Assembly (NCBI RefSeq): GCF_001552785.1
Contig: NZ_KQ959484.1
Span: 1 to 64,000 of the forward strand
Direction: 5' to 3'
Source: Atopobium deltae
Lineage (GTDB): Bacteria; Actinomycetota; Coriobacteriia; Coriobacteriales; Atopobiaceae
Length of the DNA: 64,000 bases
The translations under genes and the position numbers were made by a program. Shown here one piece after another: positions 54,494 through 62,951 of the stretch. A model generated the notes under the pieces. That model was given only the letters and a program-made list of their open reading frames with translations, ran no database searches and had not been told where the DNA came from. The first letter of the stretch is position 1, and every line of letters begins with the position of its first letter.

Positions 54494-54563
54494 GGGAAAC
54501 CTCCGCAAAACTAACCTACCTGGTAAACCTACCTGGCAAAAGCTTACCTGGTAACACCTTATT

Positions 54564-54639
54564 TGGTGCCCTCAGTGGGGATCGAACCCACGACCTTTCG
54601 CTCCGGAGGCGAACGCTCTATCCACTGAGCTATGAGGGC
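54564..54639 (-). tRNA. tRNA-Arg (anticodon CCG)
   Basis: Cloverleaf with acceptor GCCCTCA/TGAGGGC, discriminator A and encoded CCA (54564-54566). The anticodon stem TTCGC/GCGAA encloses CTCCGGA, giving anticodon CCG for CGG arginine codons. Confidence 0.95.
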
Positions 54640-54838
54640 ATCTCGGCCAATGCCGTCGACCACGACCGACTATCGTCAACCACGGATTGACCGCAGTCAT
54701 TAAGACACAACTGATACTTCCGTAGTCCGTAAGCTTTAGTATACCGTGATTTCCATAGCAGGCTCAGTAAAAATGTTTCATCAACGTATACGATAACCAT
54801 ATCAACGCATCTGACGATAAAATCAAGGGTATTATCGA

Positions 54839-55153
54839 ATGGTTACGTATGAGTTAAGCACAAGAAGCGCATATGATGTAAAAGCGAGCATAATGACAAA
54901 TACCAGCTATGTACCAAACACCGTCGGGCTTCTCGGCAGGATCCTACAAAGATCTAACACGCGTGGCCGTCTTAATGCGCCCATGTGGTACGAGCTGTTT
55001 TTGGCAAATGCTGACAATCTGTCGCACGAGATTGCGATGCTTATCGACAATCTACAGGCGTATAAAGATGCGATCGATGCAGGTGATGCGCATAGTTTGC
55101 AGGCGCTGCTTGCCGAGGGCAATCGTCTAAAAAGAGAGGCTGAGGCGCAATAA
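54839..55153 (+). pseudogene. C-terminal remnant of prephenate dehydrogenase (TyrA-like)
   Basis: The last 85 codons (GLLGRILQRSNTRGRLNAPM, WYELFLANADNLSHEIAMLI, LLAEGNRLKRE) resemble the helical C-terminal dimerisation domain of prephenate dehydrogenase, where MW-D-FL-NRD-L is typical. The NAD-binding N-terminal domain is absent; tRNA-Arg ends only 200 bases upstream and I see no trace of it in other frames. The TAA overlaps the aroB ATG (TAATG). Either a deletion remnant still translated for coupling, or a free-standing small helical protein; I favour the former. Confidence 0.55.
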
Positions 55154-56310
55154 TGAGCGATGTGAAGATTTCTGGGGTGCAGGTAGGAACACATACACGC
55201 ATCATTGACGTGCAAGCGACTTCGGCCAGCTATACGGTGTTTATTGGTGCACACATCCTTGAACACGCGGGCAAACTCGTGCGCGAGAGCGTTCGCTCAG
55301 CCGATGCAACAAAGGCGTATCTGGTAAGTGACACGAACGTAGAGCCGCTGTATGCAGCAACTGTCGAGAAGAGCCTGGTTGCCGCAGGCTTTACCGTATA
55401 TACACACAACTTTGCCGCAGGTGAGGCCTCTAAACGCATCAATACGCTTTCGGATCTGCTTGAAGGTCTTGCACAAGCAGGGCTTTCTCGCAAGGACGTG
55501 GTGGTTGCCTTGGGCGGCGGCGTGGTAGGCGACATTGCAGGACTTGCGGCGGGGCTCTATTTGCGTGGCATTGATGTTATCCAGATGCCCACGTCACTGC
55601 TTGCTATGGTTGATTCTTCGGTGGGCGGCAAAACGGCTATTGACCTTGAAGCAGGTAAAAACCTAGCTGGCGTCTTTTTGCAACCGCGCGCCGTCATTGC
55701 AGATGTGAGCTGCTTGGATACCCTTTCTGCTGAGCTTTTTCGGGATAGCTGCGGCGAAGTCATCAAGCATGCCGTACTTGCCGACCCGACGCTCTTCTCG
55801 CAGCTCAGCGCCAAAGCGCTGACGCAACATAATTACACGCACGATGAACTTATCGACATCATCGCACGCAATATTACGATCAAGCGAGACGTCGTCCAAG
55901 CTGACGAGACCGAAGAGGGTCTGCGGCAAGTGCTCAATCTGGGGCACACCATCGGACATGCTATTGAGGCAGCCAGCCATTTTGAATTGGGACATGGAAG
56001 TTGCGTTGCAGCGGGCCTATGCTGCATGGTTCGCGGAGCCGTGGGCTTGGGTTGGTGCACACCACAGCTGCTAGACACTATCGAGACAGTCGTGGCCGCT
56101 CACGGACTTCCCACGGACACAGCGCTGGATCACGACGTGCTCTTTACCTATGCCTGTCGAGACAAAAAGCGCCTCTCTGACAAGGCTCATCTGGTTGTGC
56201 CCACCAAGATTGGCCACGTGACAATAAAAACCGTCGGTACCGATATACTTAAACAAGTTATAGACAAGGGCTGTTTGAGTGCGAGCGCACCCAGCAGCAC
56301 AAACGCATAA
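55153..56310 (+). CDS. aroB: 3-dehydroquinate synthase
   Basis: Converts DAHP to 3-dehydroquinate, the second shikimate step, with NAD and a divalent metal. Family segments are ALGGGVVGDIAGLAAGLYLR, PTSLLAMVDSSVGGKTAID, and the metal ligands in EVIKHA and LNLGHTIGHAIE. 385 residues. It heads the intact aro genes and its start overlaps the tyrA-like remnant. Confidence 0.95.
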   Translation: MSDVKISGVQVGTHTRIIDVQATSASYTVFIGAHILEHAGKLVRESVRSADATKAYLVSDTNVEPLYAATVEKSLVAAGFTVYTHNFAAGEASKRINTLSDLLEGLAQAGLSRKDVVVALGGGVVGDIAGLAAGLYLRGIDVIQMPTSLLAMVDSSVGGKTAIDLEAGKNLAGVFLQPRAVIADVSCLDTLSAELFRDSCGEVIKHAVLADPTLFSQLSAKALTQHNYTHDELIDIIARNITIKRDVVQADETEEGLRQVLNLGHTIGHAIEAASHFELGHGSCVAAGLCCMVRGAVGLGWCTPQLLDTIETVVAAHGLPTDTALDHDVLFTYACRDKKRLSDKAHLVVPTKIGHVTIKTVGTDILKQVIDKGCLSASAPSSTNA

Positions 56311-56345: not shown

Positions 56346-57668
56346 ATGGACGTACGCATAACCCCACAACCGCTTGCTGGCACCGTTTGTGCCATTGCCT
56401 CTAAATCGATCGCGCATCGCCTACTTGTGTGTGCGGCGCTGGCCGATAAGCCCTGCGTCATTGACTGCGCCCACACATCCGACGACATTATGGCAACGGT
56501 GAGCTGCTTGCGAGCGCTCGGAGCGCGCATTACGCAAACCAAAACGGGCTTTCGCGTCATCCCCTTAAAGCGCCCTCACGGCCTTGCACGCCACCTCTGG
56601 CATCCAACCGCGCAGCTGTACTGCAATGAATCAGGCTCTACCCTGCGCTTTATGCTTCCTGTTGTCTGCGCACTCGGGACCCCCGCCGCCCTGTATATGC
56701 AGGGTAAGCTTCCAAAGCGGCCCTTATCGCCCTTGTACGAACAGTTGGTGCTGGCGGGCGCACGTTTAAGCCCACAAGGTAATAATCCGCTGGTCGTAGC
56801 AGGTTCGATACGCCCCCAAACGTTTTATATGCCTGGCAATATTTCCTCGCAGTACATCAGTGGCCTGCTCATGGCAGCGCCTTTGCTCAAGGAAGAGGTG
56901 CGTGTGGTAGTGACGAAGCCCGTCGAATCACGCCCGTATATCCAGCTCACGCTGCAAGCCATGAAGCAGTTTGGGGTAATCGTGCAAGAAACAGAAGAGC
57001 TCGATGCTGACAAGAACCCCGTCGTGGTCTATACCGTCGACAAAGATGCATGTTTTTGTTCCTGCGAGGAGGTTTCGGTCGAAGGCGATTGGTCTAATGC
57101 GGCCTTCTGGCTTTGTGCAGGCGCCGTTGGCGGCAGCGGTCTCACCGTTGATGGTCTTAATCTCACGAGTGCTCAGGGCGATCGCGCCATTATGGCAGCG
57201 CTTGCCCGCTTTGGCACACGCATTTCTCGCAAAAAACACCAGGCAACAGCCGTGCATGATCACATTAGTGCCTGTGATATTGACGTGGCACACTTTCCCG
57301 ATTTGGTACCTCCTTTGGCGGTGGTTGCCTCTGTCGGTGAAGGCACTACAACCATTAGCGGCGCAGCACGCCTGCGCATTAAAGAGTCGGATCGTTTGCA
57401 AACCGTGTGCGCGGGGCTCACGGCTTTGGGCGCTGACATTCGCATCGTGGATGACAGCCTTGTAATTCAAGGAGTGCCGCAGCTCACAGGTGGTGTGGTT
57501 GACGCGGCGCATGATCATCGCATCGCAATGATGACTGCTATTGCGGCGACTCGTTGTATGCAAGACGTTATTATCAAAAATGCTTCGTGCGTCAGTAAAT
57601 CGTATCCGCAGTTCTTTGAGGATTATCAGGCGCTGGGCGGACAAGTGCACGTCATCGACGAGTCGTAG
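56346..57668 (+). CDS. aroA: 3-phosphoshikimate 1-carboxyvinyltransferase (EPSP synthase)
   Basis: Adds enolpyruvate from PEP to shikimate 3-phosphate. CNESGSTLRFMLPV, KESDRLQTVCAGL and DHRIAMMTAIAA are present; the N-terminal KSIAHRLLVCAAL replaces the usual KS-S-R. 440 residues. AAGGAAAG precedes ATG 56346. The PEP-binding loop is the class most diverged from the Gram-negative type. Confidence 0.95.
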   Translation: MDVRITPQPLAGTVCAIASKSIAHRLLVCAALADKPCVIDCAHTSDDIMATVSCLRALGARITQTKTGFRVIPLKRPHGLARHLWHPTAQLYCNESGSTLRFMLPVVCALGTPAALYMQGKLPKRPLSPLYEQLVLAGARLSPQGNNPLVVAGSIRPQTFYMPGNISSQYISGLLMAAPLLKEEVRVVVTKPVESRPYIQLTLQAMKQFGVIVQETEELDADKNPVVVYTVDKDACFCSCEEVSVEGDWSNAAFWLCAGAVGGSGLTVDGLNLTSAQGDRAIMAALARFGTRISRKKHQATAVHDHISACDIDVAHFPDLVPPLAVVASVGEGTTTISGAARLRIKESDRLQTVCAGLTALGADIRIVDDSLVIQGVPQLTGGVVDAAHDHRIAMMTAIAATRCMQDVIIKNASCVSKSYPQFFEDYQALGGQVHVIDES

Positions 57669-57679
57669 GAGTTTACACC

Positions 57680-58804
57680 ATGGCATCGAATTTTGGTTCC
57701 ACCATACGCGTTGCCCTCTTTGGGCAATCTCACTCTGCCGCTGTCGGTGTGGTGGTCGAAGGGCTTCCCGTTGGTTTTAGCGTTGACCAGGCCCGTCTTG
57801 ACGCTTTTATGCAACGCCGCGCGCCAGGTCACTCCGCCTGGGCAACGCCGCGCAAGGAAGCCGACAAGCTGCGCATTGTTTCGGGCTTAAACCCTGCAGG
57901 TCAGACCTGTGGAGCACCTTTGTGTGGGCTTATCGAGAATACCAACACGCGCTCGCAGGATTACGAAACCCTCAAGCGCATTCCGCGCCCTGGTCACGCT
58001 GACTTTACGGCGCAGATGAAGTGGCATGGATATCAAGACGTTGCAGGTGGCGGGCATTTTTCTGGCCGTTTAACGGCGGGGTTATGCATCGCAGGAGGCA
58101 TAGCGCTGCAGCTTCTGGACGAGCGCTATGGCATTCATGTGGCAGCACACATCCAAGAGATTATGGGCATTGCCGATACACCCTTTGAAGCCTATAACAC
58201 GAGTGCCGAGAAGACCGAACTTCTTACACAGCAAATGGAACTTCTCGCACAGCTACCTGCGACCCAGCTTCCAGTCCTCAACAAAGACGCAGACCAAGCT
58301 ATGCGGCAAGCGATTGCACAGGTTAAAGAGGAGCAGGATTCCGTGGGGGGCATCATTGAATGCGTAACCACGGGTATTCCCGCTGGTATTGGTGGACCTT
58401 TGTTCGATGGGATCGAATCGGCCTTGGCACGCGCGGTCTTTGGTATTGGTGCGGTAAAAGGCATCGAATTTGGTCGAGGCTTTGCCGCTGCTCGCATGCA
58501 TGGGTCTGAACACAATGATGCCTACACCATTCATGATGGTAAACCGTGCTGTGTGAGCAATAATGCTGGAGGAAATCTTGGTGGTATTACCACAGGCGCG
58601 CCATTGCTCTTCCGCATTGCAGTCAAGCCAACTTCATCCATCGCGCGTCCACAACACTCGGTTGATATGAGCTGCAATGAACTCGCAAACCTCGAGATTG
58701 TCGGGCGGCATGACCCCTGCATTGTGCCTCGTGCAGTGCCTGTTCTTGAAGCGACAACGGCACTCGTAGTGCTCGATCAGCTGCTAAGTTTTCCTGTCGC
58801 GTAG
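57680..58804 (+). CDS. aroC: chorismate synthase
   Basis: FMN-dependent trans-elimination from EPSP to chorismate. The N-terminal signature reads FGQSHSAAVGVVVEG where most enzymes have FGESHG, so Glu is replaced by Gln and Gly by Ser while the catalytic His is kept. GGGHFSGRLTAG and GRHDPCIVPRAVPVLEA match the family. 374 residues. AGGAG lies upstream of ATG 57680, 11 bases after aroA. Confidence 0.94.
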   Translation: MASNFGSTIRVALFGQSHSAAVGVVVEGLPVGFSVDQARLDAFMQRRAPGHSAWATPRKEADKLRIVSGLNPAGQTCGAPLCGLIENTNTRSQDYETLKRIPRPGHADFTAQMKWHGYQDVAGGGHFSGRLTAGLCIAGGIALQLLDERYGIHVAAHIQEIMGIADTPFEAYNTSAEKTELLTQQMELLAQLPATQLPVLNKDADQAMRQAIAQVKEEQDSVGGIIECVTTGIPAGIGGPLFDGIESALARAVFGIGAVKGIEFGRGFAAARMHGSEHNDAYTIHDGKPCCVSNNAGGNLGGITTGAPLLFRIAVKPTSSIARPQHSVDMSCNELANLEIVGRHDPCIVPRAVPVLEATTALVVLDQLLSFPVA

Positions 58805-58888: not shown

Positions 58889-60073
58889 ATGGCAGATGTA
58901 GACAACACACCCGACGCAAACCCTACACTCGACCTCAACCATATACGCAAACGTATTGACGAGATCGACGACGGTATTCTCGACCTCTTCTTGCAACGCA
59001 TGCAATGTATTCATGAGGTCTCGGCCTGCAAAAAGGCTCACAAGCTGCCCATTCTTGATCGCAAACGCGAACGAGAAAAGCTGACATACATTGCATCTCA
59101 AACTCCAGCTGAGCTTAAGAGTTCGAGTTTGGTCCTCTTTTCCTTGCTTATGGAGACGGCGCGCACGAGCGAACACCTGCAGCTCCAAGCGTCATCACAA
59201 AGCATGCACACGCGCATCGATCAAGCGCAGGCACACACGGGGGCGCTCTTTCCCACCGATGCCTTAATCGCCTGCCAAGGTGTCGAGGGCGCCTATTCGC
59301 AACTCGCCGCCGATCGCCTTTTTAAGCGACCCAATATCTCGTTTTTTACCACCTTTGAGGGCGTTTTTAATGCCGTTGACCAGGGATTTAGTCGCTACGG
59401 TGTCATCCCTCTTGAAAACTCTACCGCAGGCTCGGTCACCAAGGTTTACGATTTGATGATGCGCTACGACTTTCATATTGTGCGCACCTTGCGCCTTAAG
59501 ATTGACCACTGCGTCCTTGCTAAGCCCTCGACCAAACTCGCCGATGTGCGTCACATTTATAGCCATCCGCAGGCCATTGCACAGTGCTCGGCATTTTTGG
59601 ATCAGCACAAAGAGATCACGGTACATGTGTGCGAGAATACCGCCGTCGCGGCACAAAAGGTTGCCGATGACCCACGCGATTGCGTGGCCGCGCTTTCGAG
59701 CAGAAGCTGCGCTGGGCTGTATGGCCTGGTAGCGCTGCAAAAAGATGTGCAGGATACTGACAACAATTACACGCGTTTTGCCTGCATAAGCAAAAAGCTC
59801 GAAATCTATCCAGGGGCTGATCACAGTTCATTGATGCTCGTGCTCGGCCATGAGCCAGGAACCCTGTACAAGACACTTTCGCGTTTTTATGCCCTCGACA
59901 TCAATATTTGCAAGCTCGAAAGCCGCCCTATCCCCCACAAAAACTTTGAATTCATGTTCTACTTCGACATCGAGTGCCCCGTAGCCTCCCCGCAATTCAG
60001 CATCCTGCTCGACACACTACAGGATACCTGCGAGGAGTTTCGCTACCTGGGCAGTTACGCGGAGTTACTCTAA
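58889..60073 (+). CDS. pheA: bifunctional chorismate mutase / prephenate dehydratase
   Basis: P-protein leading to phenylpyruvate. The AroQ-class mutase domain (about 12-100: IRKRIDEIDDGILDLFLQRM, KKAHKLPILDRKRE) is followed by prephenate dehydratase (about 125-305: CQGVEGAYSQLAA, VIPLENSTAGSV, DNNYTRFACIS) and a C-terminal ACT domain with GTLYKTLSRFYALD and LESRPI, the phenylalanine-binding motif for feedback inhibition. 394 residues. Coupled to the next gene by TAATG. Confidence 0.95.
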   Translation: MADVDNTPDANPTLDLNHIRKRIDEIDDGILDLFLQRMQCIHEVSACKKAHKLPILDRKREREKLTYIASQTPAELKSSSLVLFSLLMETARTSEHLQLQASSQSMHTRIDQAQAHTGALFPTDALIACQGVEGAYSQLAADRLFKRPNISFFTTFEGVFNAVDQGFSRYGVIPLENSTAGSVTKVYDLMMRYDFHIVRTLRLKIDHCVLAKPSTKLADVRHIYSHPQAIAQCSAFLDQHKEITVHVCENTAVAAQKVADDPRDCVAALSSRSCAGLYGLVALQKDVQDTDNNYTRFACISKKLEIYPGADHSSLMLVLGHEPGTLYKTLSRFYALDINICKLESRPIPHKNFEFMFYFDIECPVASPQFSILLDTLQDTCEEFRYLGSYAELL

Positions 60074-61500
60074 TGCCTAGCTCAAATCTACCGAGAAAAT
60101 CGCCGAAGCCCACGCCTGCGCCACAAGCGCCGCAGGCCACGAACACGCCAGCAGCGCCTGCACCCGCGCCACAAGCACCGAAGCCCACAACCCCCTACGG
60201 TCTTCTCGGCAAAACACTGGGGCATAGCTGGTCGCCCGAAATCCATCAGCAGCTCGGCAGCGCTCCCTATGCCCTCTATGAACTTCAGTCCGACCAGCTC
60301 GAACAGTTTATTCGTCACGAACACTGGCGCGGCCTGAATGTCACCATCCCCTACAAGCAACAAGTCGCGCGCCTCGCAGACAGCTGCTCTGATGCGATGA
60401 AGCACATTGGAGCTGCCAACACCCTTGTAAAGGACGAGAAGGGTCGTATCGTTGCTCACAACACCGATGCGCTTGGATTTTTACAGCTCTTGAAGCATGT
60501 CTGTACACAGCAGCTGGGCCTTCCCGATGCTCGAACACTCGTGGCACACAAAAAGGTGCTCGTGCTAGGAAGCGGTGGCGCCTCAAAAGCCATCCGCTAT
60601 GTGCTTGAGCAGCTCCAAGCGCAGGTCGTCATCATATCGAGAAACCCACCGAAGTCTAGTTGCGCAGCACAGACAGCCAACTCCCCCGTACGCTACGACA
60701 GCTACGAATCGCTCAGTCAACGCCACCGCGACGCCGTGCTTCTTGTCAATGCGACGCCCGTCGGCATGTATCCAAATACCGAAGCCAGCCCCCTAAGCCA
60801 CACGCAATTCGAGGCACTCGAGAGCGTGAAAGCCGTTATCGATAGCATTTACAATCCGCAAATTACCCGCTTGGGTCAGGACGCCCTCGCCTGCCATAAG
60901 GTTTATGCCAACGGCCTACGCATGCTCGCAGCACAGGCGTGGGCCGCCGCGCAACTCTTTTTGCACAAGGAAATTGATACCACTTGCATCGACCGTATCG
61001 TGCATAATCTTGCGCAACGTATGCAAAACGTGGCGCTTATCGGTATGCCGGGTGTGGGCAAAACAACCACAGGACAGCTCCTCGCCCAACGCCTTGGGCG
61101 CCCTTTTATTGATCTGGATGACGCTTTTACGCAAATTGTAGGCACCACACCAGCCGATTTTATACGCAAACACACAGAAGCCGCTTTTAGAGCGCGCGAA
61201 ACCGAAGTTCTGCAGGTATATGCCAAAAAATCTGGACAAATACTTTCGTGCGGTGGCGGGGTTGTATGCCGTCACAAAAACTATGAGCTCCTGAAGCAAA
61301 ATGCCACAATCGTCATGCTCAATCGCCCACTTAAGGCTCTAAGCTGCGAAAATCGACCCATCACGCAAGCGCAAAGCCTACAGGCGTTGCAACAGGCGCG
61401 CATGCCCCTTTACCAGCAGTGGGCCGACATAAGCATTCACAATCCAAGCTCTCCTGCTACAGCTACGCAAACCATTATCGATACGCTCAGCTTATCGTAA
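60073..61500 (+). CDS. shikimate dehydrogenase-shikimate kinase fusion
   Basis: Two consecutive shikimate steps in one chain of 475 residues. A Pro/Ala/Gln-rich repeat (about 10-40) precedes the AroE domain (GLLGKTLGHSWSPEIHQQLG, LNVTIPYK, VLGSGGASKAIRY, NATPVGM). The AroK domain starts about residue 315: NVALIGMPGVGKTTTGQLLA (Walker A), FIDLDDAF, CGGGVVCR, and a lid region ending ARMPLYQQWADI. ATG 60073 overlaps the pheA stop. Fusion of aroE with aroK is known in some anaerobes and would help channel shikimate. Confidence 0.93.
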   Translation: MPSSNLPRKSPKPTPAPQAPQATNTPAAPAPAPQAPKPTTPYGLLGKTLGHSWSPEIHQQLGSAPYALYELQSDQLEQFIRHEHWRGLNVTIPYKQQVARLADSCSDAMKHIGAANTLVKDEKGRIVAHNTDALGFLQLLKHVCTQQLGLPDARTLVAHKKVLVLGSGGASKAIRYVLEQLQAQVVIISRNPPKSSCAAQTANSPVRYDSYESLSQRHRDAVLLVNATPVGMYPNTEASPLSHTQFEALESVKAVIDSIYNPQITRLGQDALACHKVYANGLRMLAAQAWAAAQLFLHKEIDTTCIDRIVHNLAQRMQNVALIGMPGVGKTTTGQLLAQRLGRPFIDLDDAFTQIVGTTPADFIRKHTEAAFRARETEVLQVYAKKSGQILSCGGGVVCRHKNYELLKQNATIVMLNRPLKALSCENRPITQAQSLQALQQARMPLYQQWADISIHNPSSPATATQTIIDTLSLS

Positions 61501-61805: not shown

Positions 61806-62951
61806 ATGAAATATGCAGACATAGCTTCACATATTCTTACTCACATCGGTGGCAAGGACAACGTCCGAACGAGCACCGTGTGCATGACGCGCCTGCGCCT
61901 GAATCTCACGGACATTTCGCGCATCGACGATAACGAGCTCAACATGCTCGAGAGCGTGCTGGGTATCGTGCGTCGAGGCAATCATGGCCTCGAGATTGTA
62001 TTTGGTCCTGGCATTGTCGAGAAGATCTACGAACCTTTTGCGGCCCTTGTTGGATCGAGCAATAACGAGACGGAACCTCCTGAGCACCCTCTTAGCGCAG
62101 GAACGCTTCGCGTGCAGATCGCTCGTGGTGCATATAGCGGAGGGGTCGCCGCTGGGGCGAGCGCTGGCCGCAGCGCCAGTGACGTGACTAACAACAGCGC
62201 ATCTACCAGCGCAAATGCAAACACTTCGCAGAGTTCGCACACAGCAAGCTCACAGCCAAGCGCGCAGACCTCATCAAATACCCAGGACAGCCCTTCGACG
62301 CTTGATGATGACATCGCGTCATTGCTGGCGGTGCTCGACACTCTTCAGAGCTCAAAGAAAAAGTCGGCCACTGCTGCGGAGACCAGCACAAACTCGTCTA
62401 GCAGCCGCATGTCGACCGATGATCAAACAACTGCCGCAAACAATGGCGCAGGTGGTGCCCCGTCAACTTCTGAGATCCAAAAAACATCAAACGCTGAGCT
62501 TCTCGGCATTAAAAAAATTCTTATTCTGAATGGCCCCAACATTAATATGCTCGGCATTCGCGAACCCACACTGTATGGAGCACAAACTTACGCCGATCTT
62601 ATCTCCCTGTGCCAGTGCGAAGCTAGGCTTGTTGGCTTTGGCGCCTGCAATTGCTATCAGTCGAATCATGAGGGCGCGCTTGTGGACGAAATTCAGCATG
62701 CGTGCGGGCTCTACGATGGAATTATCTTCAATCCAGGTGCCTATACGCACACGTCCATTGCGCTGCTCGATGCGCTGAACGCCGTGCAAATTCCCTGCAT
62801 TGAAGTGCATATTTCTGAGGTCGATAAGCGCGAGGATTTTAGGCAGATTTCGTATATTCGTCGCGCGTGCTTCAAAACCATTATGGGCATGGGGCTTAAT
62901 GGCTACGTTCAGGCCATTCACGATATGGCACAGCATTTACTGCAAGCGTAA
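61806..62951 (+). CDS. PTS EIIB-like domain fused to type II 3-dehydroquinate dehydratase
   Basis: A 381-residue two-domain protein. Residues 1-83 match the glucose-family EIIB fold: ILTHIGGKDNV, the phosphorylation-site segment TSTVCMTRLRLNL with Cys26, then VLGIVRRGNHGLEIVFGPGI. A Ser/Ala/Thr/Asn-rich linker of about 145 residues follows. Residues 236-381 form a complete AroQ dehydratase: LNGPNINMLGIREPTLYG (Arg252, catalytic Tyr257), CYQSNHEG, FNPGAYTHTS, EVHISE (His335) and REDFRQISYIR. AroQ makes 3-dehydroshikimate between AroB and AroE, both encoded just upstream. No EIIC or EIIA gene is adjacent, so the EIIB part is probably regulatory rather than for transport (inference). Confidence 0.92.
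   Translation: MKYADIASHILTHIGGKDNVRTSTVCMTRLRLNLTDISRIDDNELNMLESVLGIVRRGNHGLEIVFGPGIVEKIYEPFAALVGSSNNETEPPEHPLSAGTLRVQIARGAYSGGVAAGASAGRSASDVTNNSASTSANANTSQSSHTASSQPSAQTSSNTQDSPSTLDDDIASLLAVLDTLQSSKKKSATAAETSTNSSSSRMSTDDQTTAANNGAGGAPSTSEIQKTSNAELLGIKKILILNGPNINMLGIREPTLYGAQTYADLISLCQCEARLVGFGACNCYQSNHEGALVDEIQHACGLYDGIIFNPGAYTHTSIALLDALNAVQIPCIEVHISEVDKREDFRQISYIRRACFKTIMGMGLNGYVQAIHDMAQHLLQA

Follow-up and report, generated by a model that had tools for sequence, protein, structure and literature searches.

A 104-residue open reading frame at positions 54839-55153 (+) of the window, the 64,000-nucleotide stretch of Atopobium deltae contig NZ_KQ959484.1 analysed here, is very probably a young and ordinary pseudogene of tyrA (prephenate dehydrogenase), which has suffered an internal deletion and whose leftover frame still reaches the overlap with aroB. 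The kind of event is known, namely ordinary gene decay, here caught early. Of 59 related genomes, 38 encode a prephenate dehydrogenase whose C-terminus matches the tail of this frame (with the genome studied here, 39 of 60 show a match), at up to 77% identity and with E values of 1.3e-25 to 8.7e-6 that lie far above chance similarity and bear out the TyrA remnant proposed in the first-pass annotation. All 38 relatives with a tail match also have the NAD-binding domain PDH_N (PF02153), while the genome studied here has the tail alone. In the two other genomes of the genus that we compared (G001 and G002, hereafter the siblings) an intact tyrA orthologue occupies the same place, in the order tRNA-Arg, tyrA, aroB, aroA, aroC and pheA that is also seen here, and the distance from the tyrA start to the aroB start is 854 nt (G001) and 872 nt (G002) as against 260 nt in the window.

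Structure of the remnant

The features at the locus are the following.

54564-54639 (-): tRNA-Arg (CCG), located with ARAGORN; the upstream neighbour that anchors synteny with the intact tyrA loci, the same in G001 and G002
54839-54892 (+): in-frame stretch 5' of the native tyrA start, 18 codons of the reported frame and probably untranslated leader; in the alignment with G001 and G002, tyrA starts at the equivalent of 54893
54893-54937 (+): native start of tyrA with its first 15 codons, MTNTSYVPNTVGLLG, from alignment and likeness to the N-termini of relatives
54926-54937 (+): deletion join, GGCTTCTCGGC, identical in the DNA alignment to the C-terminal (far) side of both siblings
54927-54968 (+): abandoned frame in which the conserved TyrA motif GFSAGSYKDLTRVA can still be read, from three-frame translation
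54968-55150 (+): final 61 codons of TyrA, covering roughly the latter half of its helical dimerization domain and again in frame with the native start, from similarity with the frames checked
55151-55155 (+): TAATG, in which the stop of the remnant and the start of aroB overlap, read directly from the letters
55153-56310 (+): aroB, 3-dehydroquinate synthase, with an intact frame (Pfam DHQ_synthase 1.8e-41, DHQS_C 6.7e-36)

The suggestion that only the helical C-terminal domain is left has to be revised, as the remnant consists instead of the native start with 15 codons, 10 out-of-frame codons and the last 61 residues. Survival of the whole C-terminal domain was likewise rejected, since about its second half is what persists in frame: the match to PDH_C (PF20463) covers positions 55-101 of 102 and stays below the cut-off (E 0.013, 16.2 bits, cut-off 22). 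General models are weak on this frame altogether, the NCBIfam prephenate dehydrogenase model giving E 5.3e-6 and 25.8 bits against a cut-off of 295. The overlap with aroB described earlier is present, the last base of the TAA stop (55151-55153) being also the first of the aroB ATG (55153).

With TyrA (PF02153 plus PF20463; represented by G001, G002 and the PDB entries 3dzb, 2f1k and 3b1f) the remnant shares the 15 N-terminal residues, the motif GFSAGSYKDLTRVA at the DNA level and the last 61 residues, and with the TyrA of the siblings also the genomic place and the overlap with aroB. It differs from intact TyrA in lacking about 600 nt of coding sequence, in its broken frame and in having no NAD-binding domain; this deletion and the change of frame constitute a disabling lesion. 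Comparisons of the motif and tail, the N-terminus and the overlap refer to the 19 relatives with returned loci among the 38 with a tail. The N-terminal MTNTSYVPNTVGLLG ends in the first glycine of the NAD-binding loop and can be set beside STYVPDRVGVVGLGLMGG in L005 and HTVGILSLGLIGG and HTVGVLSLGLIGG in the siblings; the N-terminal alignment took in 14 of the 19 relatives, and the N-terminal pattern missed three of the 19 (L004, L011 and L013) by one residue, a similar loop still being visible in them. The motif GFSAGSYKDLTRVA is identical in 11 of the 19.

When the TyrA of a sibling was compared with the PDB, 10 chains were returned, nine of them of the TyrA family, the best being 3dzb (E 1.2e-21) in an alignment that spans the tail. 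A phmmer search with the frame itself was uninformative, returning three chains with E values of 0.12-0.45 (PS1, Maquette 2-1ip and a di-Zn/porphyrin-binding protein), none of them a dehydrogenase. According to the parts of PMC2954222 drawn on here, the catalytic residues Ser179, His200 and Arg297 of the Haemophilus influenzae enzyme lie at the domain interface and its N-terminal domain comprises residues 92-243, so the region of Ser179 and His200 corresponds to the domain that is missing in the remnant. The predicted product is without the parts needed for the dehydrogenase and, judged from its sequence, is not an enzyme.

Several further differences from the siblings were observed around the locus. 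The tRNA-Arg (CCG) of the window is 76 nt long with its anticodon at 34, as against 77 nt and 35 in G001, G002 and four scanned genomes of g14, another genus of the family, and is thus one base shorter 5' of the anticodon. This tRNA and the tyrA start are separated by 253 nt here (54640-54892) and by some 127 and 139 nt in the siblings, and a TATTAT stretch between the two genes is common to all three. AroB has 385 residues here as against 365 and 360 in the siblings; both of its ends carry additional residues that do not align. A scan of 54500-55300 for promoters and terminators returned 0 and 0, where about one of each would be expected by chance.

Origin and age of the deletion

The favoured account has two steps. 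About 600 nt were lost from within the gene, and with them almost all of the NAD-binding domain and roughly half of the helical domain, and the ends were joined out of frame, as the comparison with the intact sibling genes shows. Short repeats may have mediated this event: the join GGCTTCTCGGC may also have formed the near side before the deletion, in which case it would represent a short direct repeat. The motif GFSAGSYKDLTRVA and the tail now sit in different frames (by translation, and as tblastn frames 1 and 3), and at their meeting point there is a one-base length difference relative to the siblings. This difference brings the last 61 codons back into frame with the native tyrA start, from which an open frame of 86 codons runs to the old tyrA/aroB stop-start overlap. 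Ribosomes on the remnant could then still pass to aroB as they would in the intact operon. A plain pseudogene would not need to stay open between its native start and stop codons, and in this respect the open frame counts against the favoured account.

The abandoned frame bears on the age of the loss. None of the 14 residues of its motif differs from the commonest form, from which we estimate a 95% upper bound of about 0.1 neutral changes per site, based on some 31 non-synonymous sites and on the assumption that the motif had its commonest form before the loss. The synonymous distance of the tail to G001 is above 2 and saturated; such values were saturated or undefined and are used only in the sense of "large". 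An undecayed abandoned motif beside a saturated synonymous distance in the tail indicates that the loss is recent relative to the separation from the siblings.

The tail itself is about as well conserved as those of intact genes. It breaks one of the 21 columns that are invariant in the 18 relatives compared (G022, with 60 codons, was left out of the 61-column comparison, which thus comprised 18 relatives and the window), and its mean identity to the tails of the relatives is 0.70, inside the relatives' own range of 0.61-0.77. The non-synonymous distance of the tail to the outgroup G030 is 0.165 (siblings 0.184 and 0.193), and that to G003 is 0.140 (siblings 0.129 and 0.163). This conservation is not evidence for selection, because the loss is too recent and recency explains it without selection.

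Tyrosine synthesis and the remainder of the pathway

The first-pass annotation had made tyrosine auxotrophy with retained phenylalanine synthesis dependent on the lack of any other tyrA, and had proposed that an intact copy be sought in the genome; none was found. PDH_N (PF02153) has no match in the genome, the control being positive in 14 of 14 genomes, and a sibling TyrA query at E values up to 10 finds only the present locus, in two pieces. With the genome 96.96% complete on 35 contigs, a second tyrA could still lie hidden in an assembly gap, and relatives hardly ever have one: PDH_N is present in 95 of the 104 genomes of the family, the genome studied here being among the nine without it, the 11 extra PDH_N rows in the family all lie below the cut-off, and among the related genomes one extra row (G052) reaches it. 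We also considered tyrosine formation from phenylalanine by phenylalanine hydroxylase and rejected it given the lack of a PF00351 match in this genome, a result to be read with a control that was positive in only one of 14 genomes.

DAHP synthase, aroB, aroA, aroC, pheA, aroE-aroK and aroQ are present in the genome. The pathway genes of the window that follow aroB are these.

56346-57668 (+): aroA, EPSP synthase, with an intact frame (EPSP_synthase 5.8e-86)
57680-58804 (+): aroC, chorismate synthase, with an intact frame (Chorismate_synt 2.7e-118)
58889-60073 (+): pheA, chorismate mutase - prephenate dehydratase, by which the phenylalanine branch is kept (CM_2 8.2e-15, PDT 1.6e-55)
59974-61500 (+): aroE-aroK fusion, shikimate dehydrogenase and shikimate kinase, with the true start probably further in than that of the listed frame (Shikimate_dh_N 1.9e-15, SKI 7.8e-33)
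62514-62927 (+): aroQ, type II dehydroquinate dehydratase domain (PF01220 2.5e-53)

With no other tyrA found and the phenylalanine genes that were sought present, the organism is expected to be a tyrosine auxotroph and a phenylalanine prototroph, i.e. the cell would need tyrosine while still making phenylalanine, which agrees with the phenotype proposed earlier.

Auxotrophy by gene loss in host-associated bacteria, as treated in PMC10665431, provides the setting for this loss of tyrA. In the parts of that study covered here, Coriobacteriaceae are given as one of the families in which more than 80% are predicted auxotrophs; the main text of the study does not use the word "tyrosine" at all, and the parts covered describe no single locus. 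Among the literature matches listed, none concerned this tyrA-remnant locus, which is no proof of its absence from print. As a separate observation, trpA (PF00290) is absent from the genome studied here and from seven of the 10 relatives tested (G001, all five g14 genomes and G034) and is present in G002, G030 and G025, so that a need for tryptophan seems common in these relatives and its synthesis is patchy within the genus. This common need is in line with PMC10665431, where, in the parts covered, Collinsella and Olsenella are given as tryptophan auxotrophs.

Possible coupling to aroB and alternative explanations

Overlapping stop and start codons of the kind that characterise coupled pairs are found in the window as TAATG, and the tyrA stop overlaps the aroB start (ATGA or GTGA) in all 19 relatives, which would make any coupling ancestral. 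In the window TAA precedes TGA by one codon, and the resulting TAATGA keeps the overlap. We read the overlap of remnant and aroB as an old arrangement that was inherited, and regard coupling, which the first-pass annotation had put forward to account for the survival of the remnant, as a possible reason for it but one that is not required.

A stronger proposal, that the remnant is being kept as a leader that is translated, the deletion having been favoured together with the frame change by selection on the translation of aroB, is in our judgement unlikely, although it draws on two observations: the overlap that is universal among the relatives is still present here, and the frame produced by the join without the second change would be closed in the DNA of the siblings after 7 and 22 codons, and before aroB in 11 of the 19 relatives, whereas in the window an open frame of 75 codons connects the join with the old overlap. 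The second length change, which avoids a stop before aroB, is suggestive in this respect. By our estimates, however, the frame would be restored by chance in about one case in three and a 10-codon junction would be open more often than not, so that the open frame is not significant, and the eight relatives with no stop in the join-only frame indicate that a second change is not always needed. The loss is, moreover, so recent that tail conservation says nothing about selection, and aroB has a GAGG of its own seven bases before its ATG, with a local RNA fold that is no stronger than in shuffled sequences (z 0.47). The narrower form of this proposal, in which a dead tyrA is kept as a coding leader, the second length change itself having been selected so that ribosomes reach the overlap and start aroB, and the remnant is thus a selected coupling device, appears slightly more doubtful still.

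The genus g14 also speaks against a need for the remnant. All five g14 genomes compared (G015 and G064-G067) keep aroB and, like the genome studied here, are without PDH_N, and tRNA-Arg (CCG) lies nearby in the four that were scanned (G015, G064, G065 and G067). They differ in that a tail search in G015 gave no match and that G064, G065 and G067 have no room for a tail, the in-frame aroB ATGs there standing 71-119 bases behind tRNA-Arg, less than the 183 nt of the tail. Evidently, then, aroB can persist in the absence of the remnant. In G015 and G066 a frame that resembles DAHP synthase, labelled by eye, precedes aroB. The aroB of G064, G065 and G067 is 42-43% identical to that of G015, and that of G066 99% (loci L138 and L140-L142), and the aroB genes of the two g14 groups may have different histories.

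That the TyrA tail now serves as a small helical protein with a function of its own, such as dimerization or regulation, would accord with the ordinary degree of conservation of the tail and with a single-sequence AlphaFold model that forms a helical hairpin (helices 30-63 and 66-85) with block-mean pLDDT of 74-93 from residue 31. The model is weak overall, however (mean pLDDT 75.3, pTM 0.49, with the other four models at 50-60), the frame holds only about half of the PDH_C domain behind an out-of-frame junction, and none of the relatives showed an orthologue of such length, all 38 with the tail having PDH_N as well; we therefore give this explanation hardly any credence. Conserved short orthologues were looked for and rejected, as the sole short tail frame (G012, 104 aa) holds an undetermined residue and is explained by an assembly gap. 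An artefact, with an intact tyrA in the cell and the junction or the one-base difference made by assembly or sequencing, is very unlikely, if a little less so: the assembly is a draft in 35 contigs with a possible short repeat at the join and a single genome stands for the species, but the flanks are collinear with those of the siblings and the sibling TyrA query found no other tyrA piece in the assembly, where a misjoined intact gene might have left one. With one genome of the species compared, the junction may be strain-specific or made by the assembly.

Implications

Read as a young pseudogene, the locus would represent an early stage of a loss of tyrA that another genus of the family, g14, has completed. 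Its two-step frame history would offer a small and clean test of whether translational coupling holds pseudogenes open within operons. The reading also predicts a tyrosine requirement in this species; the two others compared in the genus carry an intact tyrA.
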